A stretch of DNA of 22,463 nucleotides from a virus: positions 1-22,463 of IMG/VR virus record IMGVR_UViG_3300031857_001508; one strand, written 5' to 3'. The notes under the pieces were generated by a model that saw nothing but the letters and a program-made list of their open reading frames with translations, ran no database searches and was not told the DNA's origin. Below are positions 1,386-22,463 of this stretch, piece after piece. The position numbers were made by a program, and so were the translations under genes. Every line of letters starts with the position of its first letter. The first letter of the stretch is position 1.

Positions 1386-1802
1386 ATGGCTTTTTACCGA
1401 GGGCAGCAAGGCAGCGTCAAGTTTGACGATGCTGGCACTACTGCAGCAACCATCACTAGCACCCGCTCGTGGTCGCTGACTGTCGAGAAAGAATCGCTCG
1501 ACACCACGGCGCTAGGCGCTACATATCGCGCCAACGTGGGCGGCTTAATCAGCGGCAGCGGCACTTGCGAGATCCTTTACACCGCAAGCAGCGCCGATGA
1601 GACTAACGTCTTCATCGAGCACATCAACACTGCTAACGATGCTGGTGAGGCTCTGTTTGAGCTGTACCTTGATACCAGCGGCACCAAGAAGATTAGCTTT
1701 GACGGCGTGATCACTTCGGCTGAGTATTCTGCCACCGTAGGCGAGATCGAAGTCATTACTTTGAACTTCGTGACCAACGGAACCATTTCGCTGGACATCT
1801 GA
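1386..1802 (+). CDS. Tail tube (major tail) protein, copy 1
   Basis: A 138-residue protein of the small tail tube type. It starts MAFYRGQQG, has a conserved block RANVGGLISGSGT near residues 48-60, and ends with a strand pattern IEVITLNFVTNGT. This beta-rich layout, with length near 140 and a position between terminator and tail chaperone, matches siphovirus tail tube subunits, which stack as hexamers around the tape measure. A close paralogue follows after 2 nt (1805-2224). The two share the N-terminal motif, the central block and the C-terminal strand. Which copy builds the main tube cannot be told from sequence. Confidence 0.8.
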   Translation: MAFYRGQQGSVKFDDAGTTAATITSTRSWSLTVEKESLDTTALGATYRANVGGLISGSGTCEILYTASSADETNVFIEHINTANDAGEALFELYLDTSGTKKISFDGVITSAEYSATVGEIEVITLNFVTNGTISLDI

Positions 1803-1977
1803 TCATGGCTTTCTATCGCGGGCAACAAGGCACGGTCTTCTTTGATAAGGCTGGCAGTGGTGGTCTTTCCGAGATCGCAGCAGTGCGGTCTTGGAGTATG
1901 ACTGTTGAAAAGGAGTCGTACGACGCAACCTCTCATGGCGCTACCTATCGCGCCAACGTGGGCGGCTTAATCAGCGG
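1515..1977 (+). repeat. Direct DNA repeat shared by the two tail tube genes (1515-1555 and 1937-1977)
   Basis: Forty-one bases match with a single mismatch between 1515-1555 and 1937-1977, including 32 identical bases in a row (1524-1555 and 1946-1977). The repeat encodes the shared GATYRANVGGLISG block. The rest of the two genes is more diverged at DNA level, so this is either a recent conversion tract or strongly constrained sequence left from a tandem duplication. Confidence 0.85.
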
Positions 1978-2224
1978 TTCTGGCACCATTGAGGTGATGT
2001 ACGACGCGCCTGGATCTGGCGACAAGCTGGATCTGATCAAGGACGCTAACCAAGCCACTGATGAAGCCGATGCAGCCGTTGAGCTGTATCTGGATGAGAC
2101 CGGCGGCAAGAAGATCACGGGCACCATTGTGGTGACGAGCACTGAATACGGTGCTACGGTTGGCGAGATCGAGATTGTGACGATTAACTTCGTCTCAAGC
2201 GGTACTCTCACACTTAGCATCTGA
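1805..2224 (+). CDS. Tail tube (major tail) protein paralogue, copy 2
   Basis: A 139-residue protein beginning MAFYRGQQGTV, clearly homologous to the preceding gene along its whole length. RSWSMTVEKESYD parallels RSWSLTVEKESLD, RANVGGLISGSGT is identical in both, and the endings VGEIEIVTINFVSSGT and VGEIEVITLNFVTNGT are near identical. Copy 2 is more acidic and helix-rich in the middle (KLDLIKDANQATDEADAAVEL). This suggests the copies have diverged in the exposed region but kept the tube interface. The stop overlaps the chaperone start (TGATG at 2222-2226). It could form mixed rings with copy 1 or decorate one end of the tube. Confidence 0.8.
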   Translation: MAFYRGQQGTVFFDKAGSGGLSEIAAVRSWSMTVEKESYDATSHGATYRANVGGLISGSGTIEVMYDAPGSGDKLDLIKDANQATDEADAAVELYLDETGGKKITGTIVVTSTEYGATVGEIEIVTINFVSSGTLTLSI

Positions 2225-2583
2225 TGCCTGCCAACACACAGCGCCCGGTTGATCTACTCACGGGTGCTTTTGATCTGAACCAGCGCCGTAAATTCAGCGT
2301 CACCAATGACGCTGGCGATGCGGTGCTGGATCTGTATTTCAAGCCCATTACCCGTGCTGATCGCAAGAAGGCAACTACGCTTGCCGGTTCTGATGAGGCG
2401 CTAGAGATCAGCACGCAGATGCTGTGCCAGATGGCAGAGCTTGAAAATGGCACCAAGGCATTCGCCGCTGCTGATGCTGCCAAGCTGCAACGAGAGCTGC
2501 CTGAGCGTGTACTGAACGAACTAGAGCTATTCCTGTTTGGCCTTGGCGGTGAAGCCAACATTGAAGAAGCAAAAAACGACTAG
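2224..2583 (+). CDS. Tail assembly chaperone, short form (lambda gpG-like)
   Basis: A 119-residue protein (the 0-frame product), starting with an ATG in a TGATG overlap with the tail tube gene. It has a mixed N-terminal half (DLTxAFDLNQRRKF pattern, then LYFKPITRADRKKA) and a helical C-terminal half ending LGGEANIEEAKND. Position between tail tube and tape measure, length, and the frameshift signal at its end identify it as the G-type chaperone. These proteins bind the tape measure during tail assembly and are absent from the finished virion. The last codons GCA AAA AAC GAC TAG contain the slip site, so ribosomes that do not slip end here. Confidence 0.85.
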   Translation: MPANTQRPVDLLTGAFDLNQRRKFSVTNDAGDAVLDLYFKPITRADRKKATTLAGSDEALEISTQMLCQMAELENGTKAFAAADAAKLQRELPERVLNELELFLFGLGGEANIEEAKND

Positions 2584-2753
2584 AGGAAGACTCCTGGCTA
2601 TTCTTTGAGTTCTTCCTGGCAACTGAACTTGGCATGACAGTTAGCCGGTTGCGCACTGAGCTGACTGATGCTGAGTTCATACATTTTGCAGCCTACTATG
2701 AGGTCAAGGGCAAGCGCGAAAAGATAGAGATAGACAAGGCGCGGCACCGGTAG
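2224..2753 (+). CDS. Tail assembly chaperone, -1 frameshift fusion (lambda gpGT-like)
   Basis: Slipping back one base at A AAA AAC (2571-2577) joins the 118 upstream codons to a 58-codon extension read from 2577, ending at TAG 2751-2753, for about 176 residues. The extension begins RLEEDSWLFFEFFLATELGM and continues with LRTELTDAEFIHFAAYYEVKG near its middle. This is the typical layout of the T domain: a tryptophan and aromatic helix, a leucine-rich segment, then a W/F-xx-YY/YE motif and a basic end. The extension has no suitable start near its beginning, which favours frameshifting over a separate gene. In lambda and relatives the T domain recruits the tail tube protein to the G-coated tape measure. 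The ratio of the two products is unknown here. Confidence 0.88.
2571..2577 (+). promoter_or_regulatory. -1 ribosomal slippery heptamer AAAAAAC
   Basis: A perfect X XXY YYZ heptamer lies in the correct register (A AAA AAC), two codons before the 0-frame stop of the chaperone gene. It is the only point where the 0 frame can pass into the downstream open -1 frame that encodes the T-like domain. Confidence 0.88.
2584..2648 (+). promoter_or_regulatory. Candidate frameshift-stimulating RNA pseudoknot
   Basis: Six bases after the slippery site, AGGAAGA (2584-2590) can pair with TCTTCCT (2611-2617), a perfect 7 bp stem. Its loop segment CTGGCTA (2594-2600) can pair with TAGCCGG (2642-2648), 7 bp with one G-U pair, forming an H-type pseudoknot with loops of 3, 10 and 24 bases. 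The spacing suits a stimulator of -1 slippage. The pairing was found by eye; no folding energy was computed. Confidence 0.45.
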
Positions 2754-2778: not shown

Positions 2779-4848
2779 GTGGCTGTTGCTGTTGTTGACG
2801 TACAGGTAAACAGCCAAGGTGCTGTACGCAATCTTCAGCAAGTCAACGCAGCGTCAAAGGCGGCTACAGCTGGCATCGGCACTCTGCGCAATGCAGTCGC
2901 CGGGCTAGCGGCAGGATTTGGCACGATTCAAGCAGCCAAGTTCGTATTCGCCAAAACTGCAGAGCTTGAATCTCAAACCAGAAGCATTCAAACGCTGACC
3001 GGCAGCGTTCAGCAAGCAAAGCAAATCATCCAAGAGCTGCAGCAACTTGGAGCAGCAACGCCATTCACAGGCACCGAGCTAATCGAAAGCGCTAAGCGCT
3101 TGACGGCTTTTGGTGTTAGCGCCAAAGACGTGGCAGAAACCACCCGTCGGCTTGGCGATGTTGCCGGAGCAACTGGCGCCAACCTAGGCGAGCTGACCCT
3201 TGCCTACGGTCAAGTCATCGCTAAGGGCAGACTGCAAGGCGAGGAGCTGCTGCAGTTCCAAGAGCGTGGTGTTGCGCTGCAGGATGAGCTGCGCAAGATG
3301 TATGGGCTCACCGGTGAGGAATTTAGCAAGGCGTTGAGTAAAGGACAGATCAGCGCAGAAGCCGTTGAAGTTGCGCTGCAACGGCTAACAGATACAGGTG
3401 GCAAATATGCTAACGGCGCTATCGCTCAAAGCGACACGCTAAATGGGCGATTTAGCACGCTGCAAGATGGCATTGAGTCATTGGCGCGAACCGTTGGATC
3501 CGCGCTAACTCCAGCAATTAAGGCAGTGCTGAATGAAGCTATATTTGCGCTTAATACAATCAATCAGCTAATCGCAACTGGCGCTAGGGCTAAATCATTC
3601 GGCATGGGGCAAGCGCAGCGTCAGCAAGTGCTGCGTCAAGCGCAAAGCGAAGCAGAGCGAATTGTCAACATGCGCCGAATCAAAGATCCATTCGAGCGCA
3701 ATCGACAATTTCAGCAGCTTGCTGCGCAACGCGAACGTGATCTAATCGAATCGTTTGGCATCAGCACTGGACAAGTCAAGCCGCAAGTCACTGCACCCCA
3801 AGGATCACGTGGGGTGCCGGAATTGCTTGGGGGGGACAGCGGCAGCCGCAAGGGCAAATCCGACGCTGAAAAAGCAGCCGACAAAGCAAAGCGCGAAGCA
3901 GAACGCGCCGCAGAAGCCGCCAAGAAAGAAGCCGAGCGCGTTGCTGAAGTCATCCGGGCACGGATTGCTGAGACTGGTTTGATTCGCGCTAAGTCCGAGC
4001 TGCAGGACAAGATTGCGGCAGCAGAAGCAGCGCGAGATCCGATGCTCGTTGCGCGTTTGCAAGGTCAGCAACGTGAGCTTGATCTGCAATATCAATACGC
4101 CGAACAGTTGGTCAAGGAAACAAACGAACAGGCTAAAAAGGCAATTATCTTTGAACAGCAAACTGCGCTAGTTGCCAACCAGCGCGAAGTGCAGCGCGAT
4201 CTAAACGAGCTGCAAGCAAGGGCTGATCAGGACAGATTCAATGCACTGCAAAAGCACATCGAGCAGCAGTACGAGCTAAACACAGCAGCCCAGAATCAGC
4301 TCAAGCTTGCAGATGGTATCTCTAATACTCTTGGTCAAGGCATTGGCGGTGCATTTGATGCGCTGATTGCTGGATCCGAGGCATTTGGCGCAAGCCTCAA
4401 GCGGATTGCATCTGGCGTACTGATCGACATCGCAAAGCAACTGCTGCAGATCTTTGTGATTGAGCAGGCAATTAATGCATTAAAAGGCGTGCTAACACCA
4501 TTCAGCGCCGCAACACCACTAGGTGCAGGCGGTGGCATGGTCGGCAAATTTGGCACGCTCGGCCCCAACTTCGGCATCCCACAGCGTGCCCAAGGCGGCA
4601 GCGTTATGGCAGGGCAGCCATACCTCGTGGGCGAGCGTGGACCGGAGCTATTCATGCCAGGGCGCAGCGGCGGCATTGCCCGCGCTGGCAGCTTTGGTGG
4701 TGGTGCCAATATCGTGGTCAACGTCGATGCAGGAGGCACCAACGTGCAAGGCAACCAGCCCGAAGGACAGGCGCTTGGCCGTGTCATTGCTGCTGCGGTG
4801 CAGGCAGAATTGATTAAGCAGAGGCGACCCGGAGGCATCCTCGCGTAA
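2779..4848 (+). CDS. Tape measure protein
   Basis: A 689-residue protein with a GTG start supported by a strong ribosome site. Residues about 1-200 hold the tape measure N-terminal domain, including stretches like AATPFTGTELIESAKRL and KGRLQGEELLQFQERG that are typical of lambda-type tape measures. A region of about 350-500 is a charged Ala/Glu/Lys/Arg coiled coil (AEKAADKAKREAERAAEAAK). Hydrophobic helices follow near 515-570. The C-terminus carries a Gly-rich segment with GQPYLVGERGPELFMPGRSG, a common ending in phage tail tape measures. It sets tail length and helps DNA entry. At the usual 0.15 nm per residue, 689 residues suggest a tail near 100 nm (inference). The stop overlaps the next start (TAATG). 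Confidence 0.93.
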   Translation: MAVAVVDVQVNSQGAVRNLQQVNAASKAATAGIGTLRNAVAGLAAGFGTIQAAKFVFAKTAELESQTRSIQTLTGSVQQAKQIIQELQQLGAATPFTGTELIESAKRLTAFGVSAKDVAETTRRLGDVAGATGANLGELTLAYGQVIAKGRLQGEELLQFQERGVALQDELRKMYGLTGEEFSKALSKGQISAEAVEVALQRLTDTGGKYANGAIAQSDTLNGRFSTLQDGIESLARTVGSALTPAIKAVLNEAIFALNTINQLIATGARAKSFGMGQAQRQQVLRQAQSEAERIVNMRRIKDPFERNRQFQQLAAQRERDLIESFGISTGQVKPQVTAPQGSRGVPELLGGDSGSRKGKSDAEKAADKAKREAERAAEAAKKEAERVAEVIRARIAETGLIRAKSELQDKIAAAEAARDPMLVARLQGQQRELDLQYQYAEQLVKETNEQAKKAIIFEQQTALVANQREVQRDLNELQARADQDRFNALQKHIEQQYELNTAAQNQLKLADGISNTLGQGIGGAFDALIAGSEAFGASLKRIASGVLIDIAKQLLQIFVIEQAINALKGVLTPFSAATPLGAGGGMVGKFGTLGPNFGIPQRAQGGSVMAGQPYLVGERGPELFMPGRSGGIARAGSFGGGANIVVNVDAGGTNVQGNQPEGQALGRVIAAAVQAELIKQRRPGGILA

Positions 4849-16114: not shown

Positions 16115-16300
16115 ATGGATCGCGTCACTGATTACATCGCCTTAGCGGTTGCAGTCCACGGCGTGGCATTGATCGTGGTCAATCTGACGCCAACACCAAA
16201 AGACGATGCAGCACTGACTGCTGCTGCTAAGACTGTCGTCAAGATTTATAGGGCCATTGAGATCCTTGCCGGTGTAATCACCCCATTCGTCAAGCGATGA
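16115..16300 (+). CDS. Small membrane protein, candidate holin
   Basis: A 61-residue protein with a hydrophobic segment at about 6-25 (DYIALAVAVHGVALIVVNL), a TPTPKDD turn, and a second amphipathic or hydrophobic helix at about 32-58 ending IEILAGVITPFVKR. The short length, two potential membrane segments, charged ends and overlap of its stop with the endolysin start (ATGA at 16297-16300) make it the best holin candidate. Holins vary greatly in sequence, so this remains positional. Confidence 0.6.
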   Translation: MDRVTDYIALAVAVHGVALIVVNLTPTPKDDAALTAAAKTVVKIYRAIEILAGVITPFVKR

Positions 16301-17355
16301 TCAAGCTATCCGATCTGTTTAAGTATTACAAGCACGGCACACCGCATCAAATGGCGGCGGTGTCTGAGCTTGAGGCAGAGCTAATAAAAACAGCGCCGCA
16401 AGTGTTTGATCGCAGCCAAGCATGGTACAAGACTTGGCAGGCTGGCGGCAAGTTGCATAATTATGACGCAGCGGTAAAACTCATTAAAGAGTTTGAGGGC
16501 GTGCACCTAAGCGCCTACCCCGATCCACTACATGGATGGGATGTAGCAACCATCGGCTATGGCACCACGCGCTATCCAGATGGCCGCAAGGTGCAACGCG
16601 GTGACAAGATTACTGTGATTGACGCCGATCAATTGCTTGATGTTGAAGTAGAGCGCATTGCAGAAAAGCTCCGCAGCAGCGTGCCTTTTTGGGGTGCAAT
16701 GAGCGGCAACAAGCAATGTGCGTTGCTGTCATTTGCCTACAACCTTGGCGCTGGCTTTTACGGCAGCGCTGGCTTTGAGACCATCAGCAGATGCTTGCGG
16801 GATAAGGATTGGGCAGCAGTACCAGAGGCAATGGAGCTATACCGCAATCCAGGCAGTGCCGTAGAGGCAGGCTTGCTGCGTCGTCGCCGCGCAGAAGGCA
16901 GGCTATGGGCTGGTGAGCAGCAACAGGATCCGGCCAAGCTCAGCACGGATAGCGCCTTCACTGCGCGCATTACGCCGCATGTGCAGCTCGGAGAGTTTGC
17001 ATTGTTTCAAGAAGCACGACGCTTTGACCATCAATATCAGCTCGACACGGCAGCAGAGCTAGCGGCATTTCTTGAGCGTGCTCGCGTTAGGTTTGGCGGC
17101 AAGCCTGTTGTGATTACAAGTGGCTACCGTCCGCGTGCCATCAATGCAGCAGTCGGAGGGGCTAGTGGTAGCGAGCACCTATACGATGCGCCCAATGTCG
17201 GAGCTGTTGATTTTTACATCCGCGAGGTCAACATCAACCACGTGCAGGATTGGTGCGATGATCACTGGCCCTATTCACTCGGCTACGGCGCACCTAAAGG
17301 ATTTGTGCATTTAGGGGTGCGACGCGGCAAGCCCAGAGTGCGTTGGGATTACTAG
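16297..17355 (+). CDS. Bifunctional endolysin: GH24 muramidase plus M15 peptidase
   Basis: A 352-residue protein with two cell wall domains. Residues about 55-205 form a T4-type lysozyme (GH24). E67 is in KEFEG, D76 in YPDP and T85 in TIGYG, which matches the T4 Glu-Asp-Thr triad with a 3-residue insertion before the Thr. Residues about 228-352 form an M15-type (M15_3-like) peptidase with SGYRP, SEH (H294), AVDF (D305) and FVHLG (H338) as zinc ligands and active-site elements. The first 55 residues are an unassigned helical extension without a signal peptide. It would cut both glycan and peptide bonds of peptidoglycan, exported through the nearby holin candidate. Confidence 0.9.
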   Translation: MIKLSDLFKYYKHGTPHQMAAVSELEAELIKTAPQVFDRSQAWYKTWQAGGKLHNYDAAVKLIKEFEGVHLSAYPDPLHGWDVATIGYGTTRYPDGRKVQRGDKITVIDADQLLDVEVERIAEKLRSSVPFWGAMSGNKQCALLSFAYNLGAGFYGSAGFETISRCLRDKDWAAVPEAMELYRNPGSAVEAGLLRRRRAEGRLWAGEQQQDPAKLSTDSAFTARITPHVQLGEFALFQEARRFDHQYQLDTAAELAAFLERARVRFGGKPVVITSGYRPRAINAAVGGASGSEHLYDAPNVGAVDFYIREVNINHVQDWCDDHWPYSLGYGAPKGFVHLGVRRGKPRVRWDY

Positions 17356-18234: not shown

Positions 18235-18552
18235 GTGGATCATTGCATTGATGGCGCAAACCTCGTACCAAAACGCAGTGCAAAACACAAATTCAGACAA
18301 GAAATCTTTGGGGCTTGGCAACATCAATGCGCCTATTGCGGCGAGTCAGCAGACACGTTGGATCACGTCAGACCGCGCCATAAAGGTGGCGCTACGGTAA
18401 CTGCAAACTTGGTGCCAGCGTGCCGTAATTGCAACCGCCGCAAAGGCAGTGAAGAATGGCAGCAGTGGTTCAATCGGCAGGATTCTTATCTGCTTGATCG
18501 TGAACTTGCGGTGTTGCGATGGATTCAAGCATCTGATGATAGAACACTTTAG
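18235..18552 (+). CDS. HNH endonuclease
   Basis: A 105-residue protein with a GTG start directly after the previous TAA. It has a structural zinc site from CAYC (C32, C35) and CRNC (C63, C66), the HNH core LDHVRPRHKGG (D43, H44), the middle Asn at N58 (ANLVPAC) and the last Asn/His position at N67 (NCNRRKG). The N-terminal KRSAKHKFRQEIFGAW is a basic helix common in small phage HNH proteins. It may be a free-standing homing nuclease or aid packaging, but no terminase gene is near in the window. Its stop overlaps the convergent sigma gene by 4 nt. Confidence 0.88.
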   Translation: MDHCIDGANLVPKRSAKHKFRQEIFGAWQHQCAYCGESADTLDHVRPRHKGGATVTANLVPACRNCNRRKGSEEWQQWFNRQDSYLLDRELAVLRWIQASDDRTL

Positions 18553-19502
18553 CCTGCCATTCCTGCTGGTGATCCTTGCACATCCCCGCTAGGCATACCC
18601 TCCACATATTCCCTATCTTTTGTATCGTTGGCGCCAAGTGGGGTGCCTGCCAGCGGATTGCCTATCAGCATACGAAGCCGATTGATGCCGCGCAGCTGCA
18701 GTTGGCACATATGGCCGCGTGAGATGCCCAAACGCTTTTCAAGGTCATTCCACGGCACAGGGTTGCGGCTGTTGCGTGCATAGATAATTTCACGAGTGCG
18801 TTCGTCTAGGTATTGTTCGCAATGATCACGGAGCACCTCAAGCTGCCAGTCGTATTCAACGTCATATTGCTTCTCGTCTGCGATTAGGTCCAAGATGTTA
18901 GATGTATCTTCTTGCGTTGGCTTGTCGAGGCTGGTGACACGGTACGCTTGACGCAATGTGTCAGATATGATTTCTGGCGTCACATCAAGCATTGCAGCAA
19001 GCTCTGACATGCTTGCGGTGCGGCCATGATCCTGCGCAAATAGCTGTGCAGTCTTGTTGATCTTGACCAGCATCTCGTGAATACCAAGCGGCAGCCTGAT
19101 GATCGGGTCATATTGCACCAATGCACGGCCAATGGCTTGACGAATCCACCAATAGGCGTAGGTGCTGAACTTGTAGCCGCGGCTGTAATCAAACAGTTCT
19201 ACAGCACGCGCAAGGCCGATGTTGCCTTCTTGGATCAGATCAAGCATCTCCAGTGTCTGATTGTTGCGCTTGCTGTACTTGCGGGCTACATGCACCACCA
19301 ACTGCAGGTTTGACTGCATAAACCGCTGGCGGGCGCGTTCACCACTGCGCAACTCACGGCGTTCTTGAGTGGTTAAGGGTCTATCAAGATCCTTAAGTTC
19401 TTTCCACCTTGCGACGCGTCGACCCAGTTGTATCTCTTGTTGCGGTGTTAAAAGTGGATAGCGAGCGATACTGTTTAAGTAGTCGCCAATGGCATCAGAC
19501 AT
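18549..19502 (-). CDS. Sigma-70 family RNA polymerase sigma factor (RpoD/SigA-like)
   Basis: A 317-residue protein. Residues 3-30 match region 1.2 (DAIGDYLNSIARYPLLT). Residues 55-130 match region 2, with LDLIQEGNIGLARAVELFDY and YKFSTYAYWWIRQAI, retaining the promoter-melting aromatics (W118, W119) and Q122 equivalent to Q437. Residues 132-150 match region 3.0 (IIRLPLGIHE). Residues 150-210 form a region 3-like domain. Residues about 225-281 are region 4, where the recognition helix is unusual: SRGHMCQLQLRG in place of the usual SRERVRQIEREA. A 36-residue Gly/Pro-rich tail follows. The closest class by eye is the cyanobacterial principal/group 2 sigma factor. It would direct host RNA polymerase to phage promoters. 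Confidence 0.92.
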   Translation of the reverse strand: MSDAIGDYLNSIARYPLLTPQQEIQLGRRVARWKELKDLDRPLTTQERRELRSGERARQRFMQSNLQLVVHVARKYSKRNNQTLEMLDLIQEGNIGLARAVELFDYSRGYKFSTYAYWWIRQAIGRALVQYDPIIRLPLGIHEMLVKINKTAQLFAQDHGRTASMSELAAMLDVTPEIISDTLRQAYRVTSLDKPTQEDTSNILDLIADEKQYDVEYDWQLEVLRDHCEQYLDERTREIIYARNSRNPVPWNDLEKRLGISRGHMCQLQLRGINRLRMLIGNPLAGTPLGANDTKDREYVEGMPSGDVQGSPAGMAG

Positions 19503-19746
19503 GGAGAATCCGTTAGTTCACACAATGGAAGCACAATTTCATGGCGCTGCCAATGCTGCGCAGTTGCGTGCGTTACATGCTGCAGCAGATTGGGCTGGCC
19601 TGTTGGAGTATGCGCTGCTACTTGCTGAGCAAGAAGCAAGCCAGCGGTCTCAAATCCACTGGCTAGCGCAAGAGGCATCAGCAGCGCTACGCAGCGGTTT
19701 GGAGCAATGGCACCTAGATGCCGCGCGTGAGTTAGGCGGCCACTGA
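19501..19746 (+). CDS. Small alpha-helical hypothetical protein on the opposite strand
   Basis: An 81-residue product from ATG 19501 (an in-frame ATG at 19489 would add four residues). It is almost all helix, with LEYALLLAEQEASQRSQIHW and LAQEASAALRSG as a likely coiled coil. Amino acid and codon choice look gene-like, whereas the overlapping leftward frame gives an Arg/His/Leu-rich product with no family features. It fills the gap between dcd and the sigma gene almost exactly, overlapping the dcd end by 15 nt. Its ATG shares CATG with the sigma start, so the two genes diverge from the same four bases. No ribosome site is visible. Function unknown. Confidence 0.5.
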   Translation: MENPLVHTMEAQFHGAANAAQLRALHAAADWAGLLEYALLLAEQEASQRSQIHWLAQEASAALRSGLEQWHLDAARELGGH

Positions 19747-20250
19747 GCCCATCACGCTGCCGTGCTGGTTGTAGTGGCCAACCTCGGCGTAGCTGGTGAG
19801 AGGCTGCTGGCTCATGCGGAAGAACACCATCTGCCCGATCTTTAATCCAGGCCATAGCGGCAGCGGCAGTATCTGGCGACTGTTCTTCAGCTCTAGGGTC
19901 AAAACGCTGCCATGCCAGCCAGGGTCGGCATAGCCGGCGTGCAGGTTTTCGTAGCCTTCGCGTGCGCGGCTGGACTTGAGGAAAAACAAGCCAGCGATAT
20001 TCTCCGGCATGTTGAACACCTCGATGGTCTGAGCAAGGATGAACTGTCCAGGCTTCAACTCGTAGGGATTCTCTGCCGTGCGTCCTGCAATGCTGAGCGG
20101 GCGCATGTCTAGGTTTTCTGCCGACTCGATCATGATCGTGTCACCCAGCCGTAGGTCAAGGCTGGCGGGATTGATCAATGCCTCGTCATAGTTCTGCACC
20201 ATGCCGCCATTGCACAGCGCTTTGATCTCGTAGTCGCAGAGGATGGTCAT
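19732..20250 (-). CDS. dcd: dCTP deaminase
   Basis: From ATG (20250) it has 172 residues; a GTG at 20295 would add 15 (SNIPEFPDSSPTQP). I prefer the ATG because MTILCDYEIKAL aligns with the usual dCTP deaminase start and because the three inverted repeats then fall upstream of the gene. Motifs are INPASLDLRLGD near residues 26-37, SSRAREG at 93-99 (substrate phosphate binding), DPGWHG at 109-114 and LTLELKN with the catalytic Glu at about 120. The enzyme turns dCTP into dUTP for thymidylate synthesis. Some relatives also hydrolyse dUTP, and this cannot be decided here. It is common in phage nucleotide modules. Confidence 0.92.
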   Translation of the reverse strand: MTILCDYEIKALCNGGMVQNYDEALINPASLDLRLGDTIMIESAENLDMRPLSIAGRTAENPYELKPGQFILAQTIEVFNMPENIAGLFFLKSSRAREGYENLHAGYADPGWHGSVLTLELKNSRQILPLPLWPGLKIGQMVFFRMSQQPLTSYAEVGHYNQHGSVMGSVAA

Positions 20251-20270
20251 TGGTTGAGTAGGTGAACTGT

Positions 20271-20283
20271 CCGGAAATTCCGG
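20271..20283. promoter_or_regulatory. Inverted repeat CCGGAA-A-TTCCGG upstream of dcd
   Basis: A perfect 6 bp dyad around one central base, 21 nt upstream of the ATG start of dcd. It is one of three dyads in the 85 bp gap between dcd and the upstream gene and a candidate operator or mRNA hairpin. No -10/-35 pair is evident by eye. Confidence 0.5.
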
Positions 20284-20291
20284 AATGTTTG

Positions 20292-20310
20292 ACACGTTCG
20301 GGCAACGTGT
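20292..20310. promoter_or_regulatory. Inverted repeat ACACGTT-N5-AACGTGT upstream of dcd
   Basis: A perfect 7 bp dyad with a 5-base spacer (CGGGC). It abuts the alternative GTG start of dcd and shares three bases with the next dyad. It has no following T run on either strand, so it is not a typical intrinsic terminator. It could be a repressor site or RNA hairpin. Confidence 0.5.
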
Positions 20311-20668: not shown

Positions 20669-20856
20669 ACCTGTTGCTCAGCGTTCTTCCAGCGTTTGCG
20701 GTTTACGATGTCGCTCACGTGCGCTATGGAGATGCCATAGGTGATGGCAATGCTCAGCATGGTCTCGCCGCCAGCTGCACGTTGGCGGATGTCAATAGCG
20801 TTCTGCGGCGTCAGCACCGCAGTGCCTGGGATGTGGCCAGCTCTAAACCTGCTCAT
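20665..20856 (-). CDS. Small helix-turn-helix protein
   Basis: From ATG 20856 it has 63 residues. A longer frame up to 20931 is open, but its extra residues look non-coding and overlap the DUF3310 gene more deeply. The core AIDIRQRAAGGETMLSIAIT followed by YGISIAHVSDIVNRKRW is a typical HTH: helix, turn at YGIS, recognition helix with HVSDIV and a basic end RKRWKN. It may bind DNA, for example the inverted repeats downstream near dcd, or be a remnant of an HNH-type domain that often carries such an HTH. It overlaps the upstream gene by 14 nt. Confidence 0.68.
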   Translation of the reverse strand: MSRFRAGHIPGTAVLTPQNAIDIRQRAAGGETMLSIAITYGISIAHVSDIVNRKRWKNAEQQV

Positions 20857-21064
20857 GATGCAATAGCAAACGACGCATGTACCAGTCAGCTTTGCCGTAG
20901 TCTTCATCGGCATTGCCCTTGTGCTCGGCACGCCACAGGTACTTGATCACATTGCCCTTGCAGTAGGCGCTGAATCCAGTATCACCAAGCGCTGACTTGA
21001 TGGCTTGAATGCACTCAATGTCGCCGTGCTTGTAATGCGGCGGGTGGTTAATTAGGTCGCTCAT
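20843..21064 (-). CDS. DUF3310 family protein
   Basis: A 73-residue protein fitting DUF3310 over its whole length: NHPPHYKHGDIECIQAIKSA near the start, FSAYCKGNVIKYLWRAEHKG in the middle and DYGKADWYMRRLL at the end. The family is widespread in phages and often sits in DNA metabolism clusters. Some members are annotated as nucleotide kinase-like, but I see no P-loop, so I do not claim this. Its start overlaps the upstream 50-residue gene by 17 nt. Confidence 0.88.
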   Translation of the reverse strand: MSDLINHPPHYKHGDIECIQAIKSALGDTGFSAYCKGNVIKYLWRAEHKGNADEDYGKADWYMRRLLLHHEQV

Positions 21065-21200
21065 CTTGCATCAGCTCCAAGAGTTCAAGAATGTGCGCGG
21101 CAAACGCCACGTGTGTCATGACTGCATGGGTGCCGGGAGGGCGCCCGTAGGACGCCTCCCACCACTCCTTGAATGCAATATCAAGTGTGGTTTGATTCAT
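21048..21200 (-). CDS. Small conserved phage protein (50 aa)
   Basis: The ORF runs from ATG (21198-21200 on the complement) to TAA (21048-21050). It begins in a TGATG overlap with the SSB stop and ends 17 nt inside the DUF3310 gene. The product has an aromatic helix FKEWWEASYG, then RPPGTHAVMTHVAFAAHILE and a short acidic end. The GRPPxTHAVMTH-AFA pattern is one I recall from small proteins in cyanobacterial and other phage replication clusters. Without this gene there would be a 135 nt hole in a tightly packed operon, which supports its reality. Function unknown. Confidence 0.72.
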   Translation of the reverse strand: MNQTTLDIAFKEWWEASYGRPPGTHAVMTHVAFAAHILELLELMQDERPN

Positions 21201-21550
21201 CAGAACACAGGCTCCTCGCTGGTGGTTGCTGCGCCGCGTGGCATGAATTCAAAGCGCTGGATGCTGAGCACATGCTTGCTGCGCTTGGCACCGGTTTCTT
21301 TGTCATTCCATTCTTGGCGACGCACGGCTCCGGTCACAAGGATGCTGTCGCCTTTTTTGAGCTTATCGACGATCAGCTCAGCGGACTTACCCCAGATCTC
21401 GCAGTCGATGGCGTTATTGATCCAGTTGCCGTCTTTGTCTTTACCCTCCTGGATACCACCTGCGAAGTTGGCAACCATGGTGCCAGATTCGAAGGCACGC
21501 AGTTGCAGGTCGGTGATGATGCGAACGATGCCGGTTGCGTAAAGGCTCAT
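21200..21550 (-). CDS. ssb: Single-stranded DNA-binding protein
   Basis: A 116-residue protein with one OB fold of bacterial SSB type: IVRIITDLQLRAFESGTMVANF at the N-terminus, IDCEIWGKSAELIVDKLKKGDSI in the middle (the CxxWGKxAE pattern) and VTGAVRRQEWNDKETGAKRS with a long loop near residues 72-92. The C-terminal tail is short (TTSEEPVF) and, while acidic and ending in Phe, is not the full DDDIPF tip of bacterial SSB. It coats single-stranded DNA in replication and in RecT-type annealing. Next to the RecT-like gene, it forms a recombination pair. Confidence 0.92.
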   Translation of the reverse strand: MSLYATGIVRIITDLQLRAFESGTMVANFAGGIQEGKDKDGNWINNAIDCEIWGKSAELIVDKLKKGDSILVTGAVRRQEWNDKETGAKRSKHVLSIQRFEFMPRGAATTSEEPVF

Positions 21551-21551
21551 G

Positions 21552-21767
21552 TCAGTTCAGTGGTGTGATGCCATTGGCTTCCTCAAAAGCCAAGACTTGA
21601 GCAAGGGGATAACGGACGCGTGGTGTGCCGGCTGGCAAGCCAATGCGTGATGCGGTGACATAGGCAGGGCCAATGCCGCGTGCACGTTGGTTTTTGATAG
21701 CTGCTGGCTTCAGCCCCCAACGTGCAGCCAGTTCATCAGTGGTCAGGAATGGCTCAGTCATCAGCAA
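21552..21767 (-). CDS. Small MerR/excisionase-like helix-turn-helix protein
   Basis: A 71-residue protein; an internal Met at residue 3 could be the true start. FLTTDELAARWGLKPAAIKNQ is a clear HTH of the AlpA/MerR-like type (first helix TDELAARWG, recognition helix PAAIKNQRARG). VRYPLAQVLAFEEANG at the end is the short beta-wing and helix seen in excisionase-like and phage HTH_17 proteins. It could control early genes or be a recombination directionality factor. No integrase is seen, so a regulator is more likely. It overlaps the RecT-like stop by 14 nt. Confidence 0.78.
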   Translation of the reverse strand: MLMTEPFLTTDELAARWGLKPAAIKNQRARGIGPAYVTASRIGLPAGTPRVRYPLAQVLAFEEANGITPLN

Positions 21768-22463
21768 ATGGATCCTCCGATGGCGTGTCGGATAGCACCG
21801 CCTCGCGCTCTACGGCAAGGCGCAGCAGCTCGTCGTTCTGTTCGTCGCTTAGCTCAGGCTTGCGCTTATCCATGCGTGCTACCACCTCCTGCAGCTTGGC
21901 CAGTGTGTCGGCTTTGGCGATTGCAGCCTTGCCGGCTTGGAACAGCTTGGCATCGCCTGCGGGTAGTGCTGGCGCAGCAGTGGTAACCGTCACCGGCTCC
22001 ACCTCGGCCTGCTGCATCTCATCAGTGCTGTAGACGCCGGACATGTCAGCGGGAAACGCCTTACGCAATGCCAGCGCCTCAGAGCATTTGGCAATCATCG
22101 CGGCACCCATCTTGGACCAGAGCCCTTGGCCGGCGTTGTAGTCAGCAAAGCGTGCAACGCCAACAAAGGGATGCTGGCTGCCCTTGCGATGGATGATGGT
22201 CTTGGCCGCGGCAGGTGGCTTGCTGCCAAGCCATACGTCAGCCCATACGCCGTCGTCACCGCACCAGTAGGTTTCGCTGCCGTCCAGTTGGCCGGTGCGC
22301 TCGGCAATGGCACGCAAGCCGTCGATGCCGGCTTGGATGGTCATCTTGCCGCCACGCTTGATGGCGTAGATCTGCTTGCTGAATGGATCCAGCCCAGTGC
22401 GCTGGCAGGCGTAGGCAAACAGGCGCAACTCGTCATTGCTGCAGCCAGGCGCAATGGTGGTTG
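21754..22463 (-). CDS. RecT/Bet-type single-strand annealing protein, 5' end outside window
   Basis: The frame is open to the window edge, giving about 236 residues of the C-terminal part. It carries the family core: LRLFAYACQRTGLDPFSKQI, YAIKRGGKMTIQAGIDGLRA, IAERTGQ, then WSKMGAAMIAKCSEALALRK and AFPADMSGVYSTDEM. The C-terminal 80 residues are an Ala-rich linker and an acidic helix, often involved in SSB or nuclease contact in this class. The protein anneals complementary strands in recombination and replication. A partner exonuclease is expected upstream, outside the window. TTG at 22428 is not a start, because homology continues upstream. Confidence 0.92.
   Translation of the reverse strand, partial: TTIAPGCSNDELRLFAYACQRTGLDPFSKQIYAIKRGGKMTIQAGIDGLRAIAERTGQLDGSETYWCGDDGVWADVWLGSKPPAAAKTIIHRKGSQHPFVGVARFADYNAGQGLWSKMGAAMIAKCSEALALRKAFPADMSGVYSTDEMQQAEVEPVTVTTAAPALPAGDAKLFQAGKAAIAKADTLAKLQEVVARMDKRKPELSDEQNDELLRLAVEREAVLSDTPSEDPFADD

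Follow-up and report, generated by a model that had tools for sequence, protein, structure and literature searches.

How does a virus express an open reading frame that lies between two of its tail genes but has no start codon of its own? In the DNA analysed here, the stop codon of a small gene, G, is separated from the start of the tape measure gene at position 2779 by 195 bases (2584-2778). The initial annotation had called this gap false and proposed that ribosomes shift into the -1 frame near the end of G and read on through most of it, with a pseudoknot downstream of the site; its count of 195 bases is correct. The window, meaning the whole stretch of DNA that was analysed, is a virus record of 22,463 bases (IMG/VR IMGVR_UViG_3300031857_001508). 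Comparison with relatives makes it almost certain that ribosomes move back by one base at a fixed position and so add a second domain to a protein that helps to build the tail.

Gene order and the identity of G

The window is related to the cyanosiphophages S-H1, MED4-184/P-HS2 and MED4-117, and its virus is a virus of cyanobacteria. Its structural genes are arranged in the order neck protein, tail terminator, two major tail proteins, G, T, tape measure and minor tail protein. G and T thus stand between a major tail protein (upstream) and a tape measure protein (downstream), where G/GT genes are expected. The main features of this region are as follows.

1386-1802, plus strand: major tail protein 1 (phrog_10528)
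1805-2224, plus strand: major tail protein 2 (phrog_10528)
2224-2583, plus strand: G, a gpG-like tail assembly chaperone of 119 aa in the 0 frame, stop codon TAG at 2581-2583 (phrog_20784, E 1.7e-40; AlphaFold match 2OB9)
2571-2577, plus strand: slippery heptamer A_AAA_AAC
2577-2753, plus strand: T domain in the -1 frame, 58 codons and a TAG at 2751-2753 (phrog_337 tail protein, E 2.2e-5)
2584-2617, plus strand: first hairpin, hp1; 2584-2590 pairs with 2611-2617, and the inner stem joins 2591-2593 with 2607-2609
About 2624-2679, plus strand: second hairpin, hp2, longer than hp1
2779-4848, plus strand: tape measure protein, the next gene 3' (PF20155 TMP_3, E 1.8e-23)

The E values of the two major tail protein genes against phrog_10528 are 1.5e-22 and 9e-18. 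These adjoining genes are 58% identical to each other, as if they were tandem duplicates.

Further along the record, several other genes can be recognized.

16297-17355: lysozyme plus M15 peptidase (Pfam)
18235-18552: HNH endonuclease (Pfam)
18549-19502, minus strand: phage-borne sigma-70 family factor with regions 1.2, 2, 3 and 4
19732-20295: dCTP deaminase-like protein (Pfam)
20843-21064: DUF3310 (Pfam)
21200-21550: SSB (Pfam)
21754-22428: RecT (Pfam)

The family matched by G, phrog_20784, is without stated function. Searches of Pfam and NCBIfam with the G and T of the window returned no meaningful match and none at the curated cut-off, and a search of the PDB by sequence profile returned no match. 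Evidence for the role of G is instead provided by structure. An AlphaFold model of the protein (mean pLDDT 75) has as its best PDB match 2OB9 (probability 1.00, E 0.008, TM about 0.5), the HK97 tail assembly chaperone. Named tail assembly chaperones were also among the matches when a library of viral structures was searched with G. In addition, the homologue of G in cyanophage KBS-S-2A weakly matches PF16459 Phage_TAC_13 (E 0.0044, below the family cut-off). The 2OB9 and PF16459 matches support the predicted role and fold of a tail assembly chaperone, as evidence that is supportive rather than conclusive.

The slip site and the -1 frame

Since the 3' end of G reads GCA AAA AAC GAC TAG, an A_AAA_AAC heptamer lies in register at 2571-2577, and its first base is 10 nt from the 0-frame stop. 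As the initial annotation had noticed, this slip site precedes the stop and the -1 frame is open for 58 codons, as far as the TAG at 2751-2753. Its description of that frame as T-like is supported by the phrog_337 match and by conservation in relatives. A fusion of G and T would be 176 aa long.

Relatives of G were collected in five scans, which yielded 458 loci that could be used and, among them, 284 distinct sequences. Some loci are overlapping pieces of one contig, and counts therefore use distinct sequences unless loci are named. All 284 distinct relatives carry a -1 slip site at the same place, and T is in the -1 frame in every one of them. The site is A_AAA_AAC in 146, A_AAA_AAA in 68 and the tetramer A_AAG in 70. 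The last type belongs to a clade of Prochlorococcus phages (loci L083, L084 and L165-L244), in which the codons read NNA AAG GAA, the codon before AAG is GCA, GTA, ACA or ATA, and the hairpin is retained. The slip codons GCA and AAA are synonymously invariant, whereas codons farther upstream in G vary. T is kept as a protein down to 24-31% identity.

The heptamer A_AAA_AAG was found in none of the 284 distinct relatives. In E. coli it is far more shift-prone than A_AAA_AAC or A_AAA_AAA (PMC5009743), and the lower slippage of A_AAA_AAC there is a point against reading the site as a frameshift signal.

T might alternatively be translated separately, by ribosomes that reinitiate past the G stop, so that no fusion is made. 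The S-H1 record agrees with this to the extent that a shortened separate CDS is annotated at T, and in Prochlorococcus-phage sequences an AAGGGGG that resembles a ribosome binding site directly follows the stop. Yet at none of the 458 loci does an ATG, GTG or TTG precede the conserved T domain within the open part of its frame, reinitiation would not require invariant slip codons, and the run of G in the Prochlorococcus phages is accounted for by the 5' arm of hp1. Separate translation is consequently hardly credible. The annotations also bear on the earlier expectation that gene callers miss the extension. This holds for the MED4-184 record, which has no CDS annotated at T, but not for S-H1, where part of it was called.

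Another mechanism is transcriptional slippage, in which RNA polymerase slips on the run of A and some mRNAs join G and T in frame. The run is six A long in the window and seven in 68 of the 284 distinct relatives, as such a mechanism would like. In 70 of the 284, however, the Prochlorococcus phages, just three A precede a G. A run of three A is too short for polymerase slippage. Slippage of the polymerase also has no need of a conserved RNA hairpin at the spacing that a ribosome would call for, and it is a very improbable source of the fusion, if slightly less so than reinitiation.

A programmed -1 frameshift in the tail assembly chaperone gene, as the initial annotation proposed, is strongly supported by these comparisons, because the slip site and the frame of T are fixed, no other start codon is available to T, the gene order is that of a tail chaperone, and the predicted fold of G is chaperone-like.

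Hairpins downstream of the slip site

In the window, hp1 begins 6 nt past the slip site. The base of hp1 is a stem of 7 bp, AGGAAGA/UCUUCCU, which is the stem described in the initial annotation and is conserved. A dnaX-like stimulator would be expected as a stable, conserved hairpin lying about 5-9 nt past the slip site. The start of hp1 stays about 5 to 8 nt past the slip site in every type of relative, despite changes of sequence and register.

Relatives fall into the sequence types EE (that of the window), CCAGGA, GCAGG and MED. The stems differ between types: AGGAAGA/UCUUCCU, GCCAGGA/UCCUGGC, GCAGG/CCUGC, and AAGGGGGA with UUUUUCCUU. EE and MED can share the same columns, whereas CCAGGA and GCAGG pair in a shifted register. 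For the GCAGG type, the largest (118 sequences, including eight EA/ET outliers with another fold), a single consensus fold by RNAalifold failed (-2.5 kcal/mol). For this reason each sequence was folded separately, and its energy was expressed as a z-score against shuffles that preserve each protein and its codon pool.

Over 45-nt windows that start at the G stop, each of the two slip-site clades has a mean z of about -3; across most of G the mean lies much nearer zero. At hp1 the mean z is -2.66 for EE (n=29), -2.46 for CCAGGA (n=23), -3.36 for GCAGG (n=85) and -2.90 for MED (n=41). The corresponding values for a control stretch of G are -0.07, -0.27, -0.33 and +0.92. Taken by itself, the hp1 of the window stands out only moderately (z -1.7 to -2.0, with 31 to 59 of 1000 shuffles as low).

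Further evidence comes from synonymous sites. Synonymous diversity at third codon bases is lower at positions predicted to pair, which are nearly frozen, than elsewhere (0.00 against 0.53, 0.06 against 0.39, 0.06 against 0.34 and 0.01 against 0.12), and the frozen codons shift with the register of hp1. For instance, 40 of 40 sequences of the CCAGGA type use CTG for Leu codon 11, as against 4 of 35 of the EE type, with kinship uncorrected in these counts. Glu codon 8 is always GAG where it falls in the inner stem; the eight EA/ET outliers, which are predicted to fold differently, have GAA there.

Covariation inside types is weak because the stem of hp1 hardly varies within a type. The argument for the hairpin draws on how the types differ from one another and on synonymous sites that are frozen, with relatedness uncorrected. 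On these comparative grounds, hp1 is a genuine conserved RNA hairpin whose sequence has been rewritten between types.

Codon 7 of T (2604-2606) shows a preference of another kind. Where it encodes Phe it is TTT in 231 of 242 cases, though the models of hp1 leave its third base unpaired.

Beyond hp1, the segment 2581-2690 of the window folds with an energy of -42.8 kcal/mol, compared with -27.3 kcal/mol for shuffles (z -3.9, none of 1000 as low). The second hairpin, hp2, has a mean z of -1.79, -3.18 and -2.14 in three types and of -0.19 in the Prochlorococcus-phage clade, and some of its pairs are altered on both sides among relatives. Hp2 is thus conserved as an RNA structure in three of four types. 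Its absence from the Prochlorococcus phages implies that it is not needed everywhere.

The initial annotation had gone further and suggested that the loop of the first stem pairs downstream, so that the same frameshift would be stimulated by an H-type pseudoknot (stem 1 together with 2594-2600/2642-2648). Seven pairs, one of them G-U, can indeed be drawn in the window, and at least six of the seven can form in 22 of the 35 nearest relatives. All seven form in only 5 of those 35, however; the two end pairs are kept by 37% and 63% of these relatives and broken in the rest without compensation, more distant types break stem 2 more, and the 3' arm at 2642-2648 sits inside the stem of hp2. The comparison of stem changes proposed with the pseudoknot therefore has a divided outcome: stem 1 survives it, whereas stem 2 fails it through uncompensated breaks. 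As a conserved element the pseudoknot was rejected, and stimulation by it is quite improbable. A transient form may still occur in the one virus of the window. A scan for other helices between the loop and downstream sequence found only short ones, mostly rich in G-U or specific to one type.

A similar arrangement can be found in a distant lineage. Cyanophage KBS-S-2A is 29% identical to the window in T (E only 0.6) and about 32% in G. Its G stop is immediately preceded by A_AAA_AAC, its T is unannotated, and two hairpins follow one after the other. Among 17 distinct relatives of this lineage, some hp1 pairs show compensatory changes, one of them being A-U in 6 and C-G in 11, and hp1 and hp2 have mean z-scores of -3.8 and about -2 (n=13). 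The arrangement of the window is thus found again in this distant lineage. In a sister group of KBS-S-2A (L486, L487, L489-L493, L495, L496, L499 and L500), T is in the +1 (or -2) frame, and the codons AAA AGC lie at the frame junction or before it. The direction of frameshifting thus apparently changes within one tail chaperone lineage.

Two single sequences differ at the slip site itself. A relative of KBS-S-2A, L497, carries the lambda slip site G_GGA_AAG instead of A_AAA_AAC. Moraxella phage Mcat14 (L463) has A_AAA_AAG before a G-like stop, a T-like domain at -1 and a strong predicted hairpin downstream. The T-like matches in Mcat14 and in Microcystis phage Mae-JY09 are weak (E 0.7).

Conserved hairpins could also serve some purpose other than slippage. 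The slip site and the fusion would then be the same, with hp1 and hp2 kept for their effect on the stability or processing of the mRNA or on translation of the tape measure gene. Stimulation by hp1 is a prediction from its position and conservation, and hp2 is distant from the slip site and missing in the Prochlorococcus-phage clade. Moreover, a small control of eight non-redundant lambda-type sequences showed no structure directly past the slip site (z about +0.7 to +0.8), with a dip to about -2 a further 24-30 nt downstream, so a tail frameshift can dispense with a hairpin beside its slip site. Against such a role stands the spacing of about 5 to 8 nt, which hp1 holds in every type and also in the KBS-S-2A lineage. 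Searches of the site for promoters and terminators and against Rfam gave no match. A purpose unrelated to slippage is therefore unlikely, although less so than any other alternative considered here.

Mechanism and known systems

The locus is thus very probably a G/GT tail-chaperone frameshift, in which two chaperones are made from one gene, as in lambda, with a hairpin as stimulator. The slip site, the frame, the lack of another start, the conservation of T and of both hairpins as RNA, the chaperone-like fold of G and the gene order are shown by comparison. In the proposed mechanism, most ribosomes would read AAA AAC GAC TAG and release gpG (119 aa). A minority would meet hp1 six bases ahead with AAA in the P site and AAC in the A site. 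Hp1 would stimulate slippage of both tRNAs back by one base, and translation would continue as GT (176 aa). The slip site and hp1 would jointly determine the ratio of G to GT. If the proteins act as in lambda, G would bind the tape measure protein and the T part would recruit the tail tube protein.

A broader reading concerns the whole cyanophage chaperone lineage. In this reading a two-hairpin signal persists while its stems are rewritten between clades and the class of slip site changes, from a tandem A_AAA_AAC or A_AAA_AAA to a single A_AAG and, in a sister lineage, apparently to +1. The hairpins would keep the G:GT ratio steady as the slip site drifts, and hp2, in those clades that have it, would act as a functional second element. 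This reading is tentative, and somewhat doubtful as a whole.

The analysis adds an unannotated tail protein to the map of a common cyanophage group, in whose public records these genes are labelled hypothetical. The relatives also form a natural series in which the slip site and the hairpin vary and the product stays constant. How phages maintain the ratio of G to GT can thus be tested with reporters.

The frameshift itself is a known phage trick. It has been described for lambda and many tailed phages (PMC5009743) and belongs to the conserved class of Xu, Hendrix and Duda 2004, as that work is cited in PMC5009743. The uncommon parts are the hairpins that are conserved but rewritten and the change of slip-site class. 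Neither was found described in the papers that could be searched, and no priority is claimed.

Lambda G/GT resembles the window in having its gene between the major tail protein and the tape measure, a -1 slip near the 3' end of G, a T that is read solely as a fusion and a G with a chaperone-like fold. It differs in its slip site (G_GGA_AAG rather than A_AAA_AAC) and in the distance from the start of that site to the stop, which is 22 nt in lambda and 10 nt in the window. The conserved hairpin directly downstream in the window is absent in the eight non-redundant lambda-type sequences.

The -1 frameshift of E. coli dnaX likewise combines an A-rich slip heptamer with a plain downstream hairpin (PMC5009743 and general knowledge). 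However, dnaX uses A_AAA_AAG and an upstream Shine-Dalgarno-like stimulator, of which none is obvious at the site in the window, and the gene is unrelated. Finally, the Prochlorococcus-phage relatives, unlike the window, carry NNA_AAG and so recall Bacillus cdd and IS1222, whose slip sites are A_CGA_AAG and G_CGA_AAG (PMC5009743). The codon before AAG is CGA in those two systems, in place of the four codons used by the phages.
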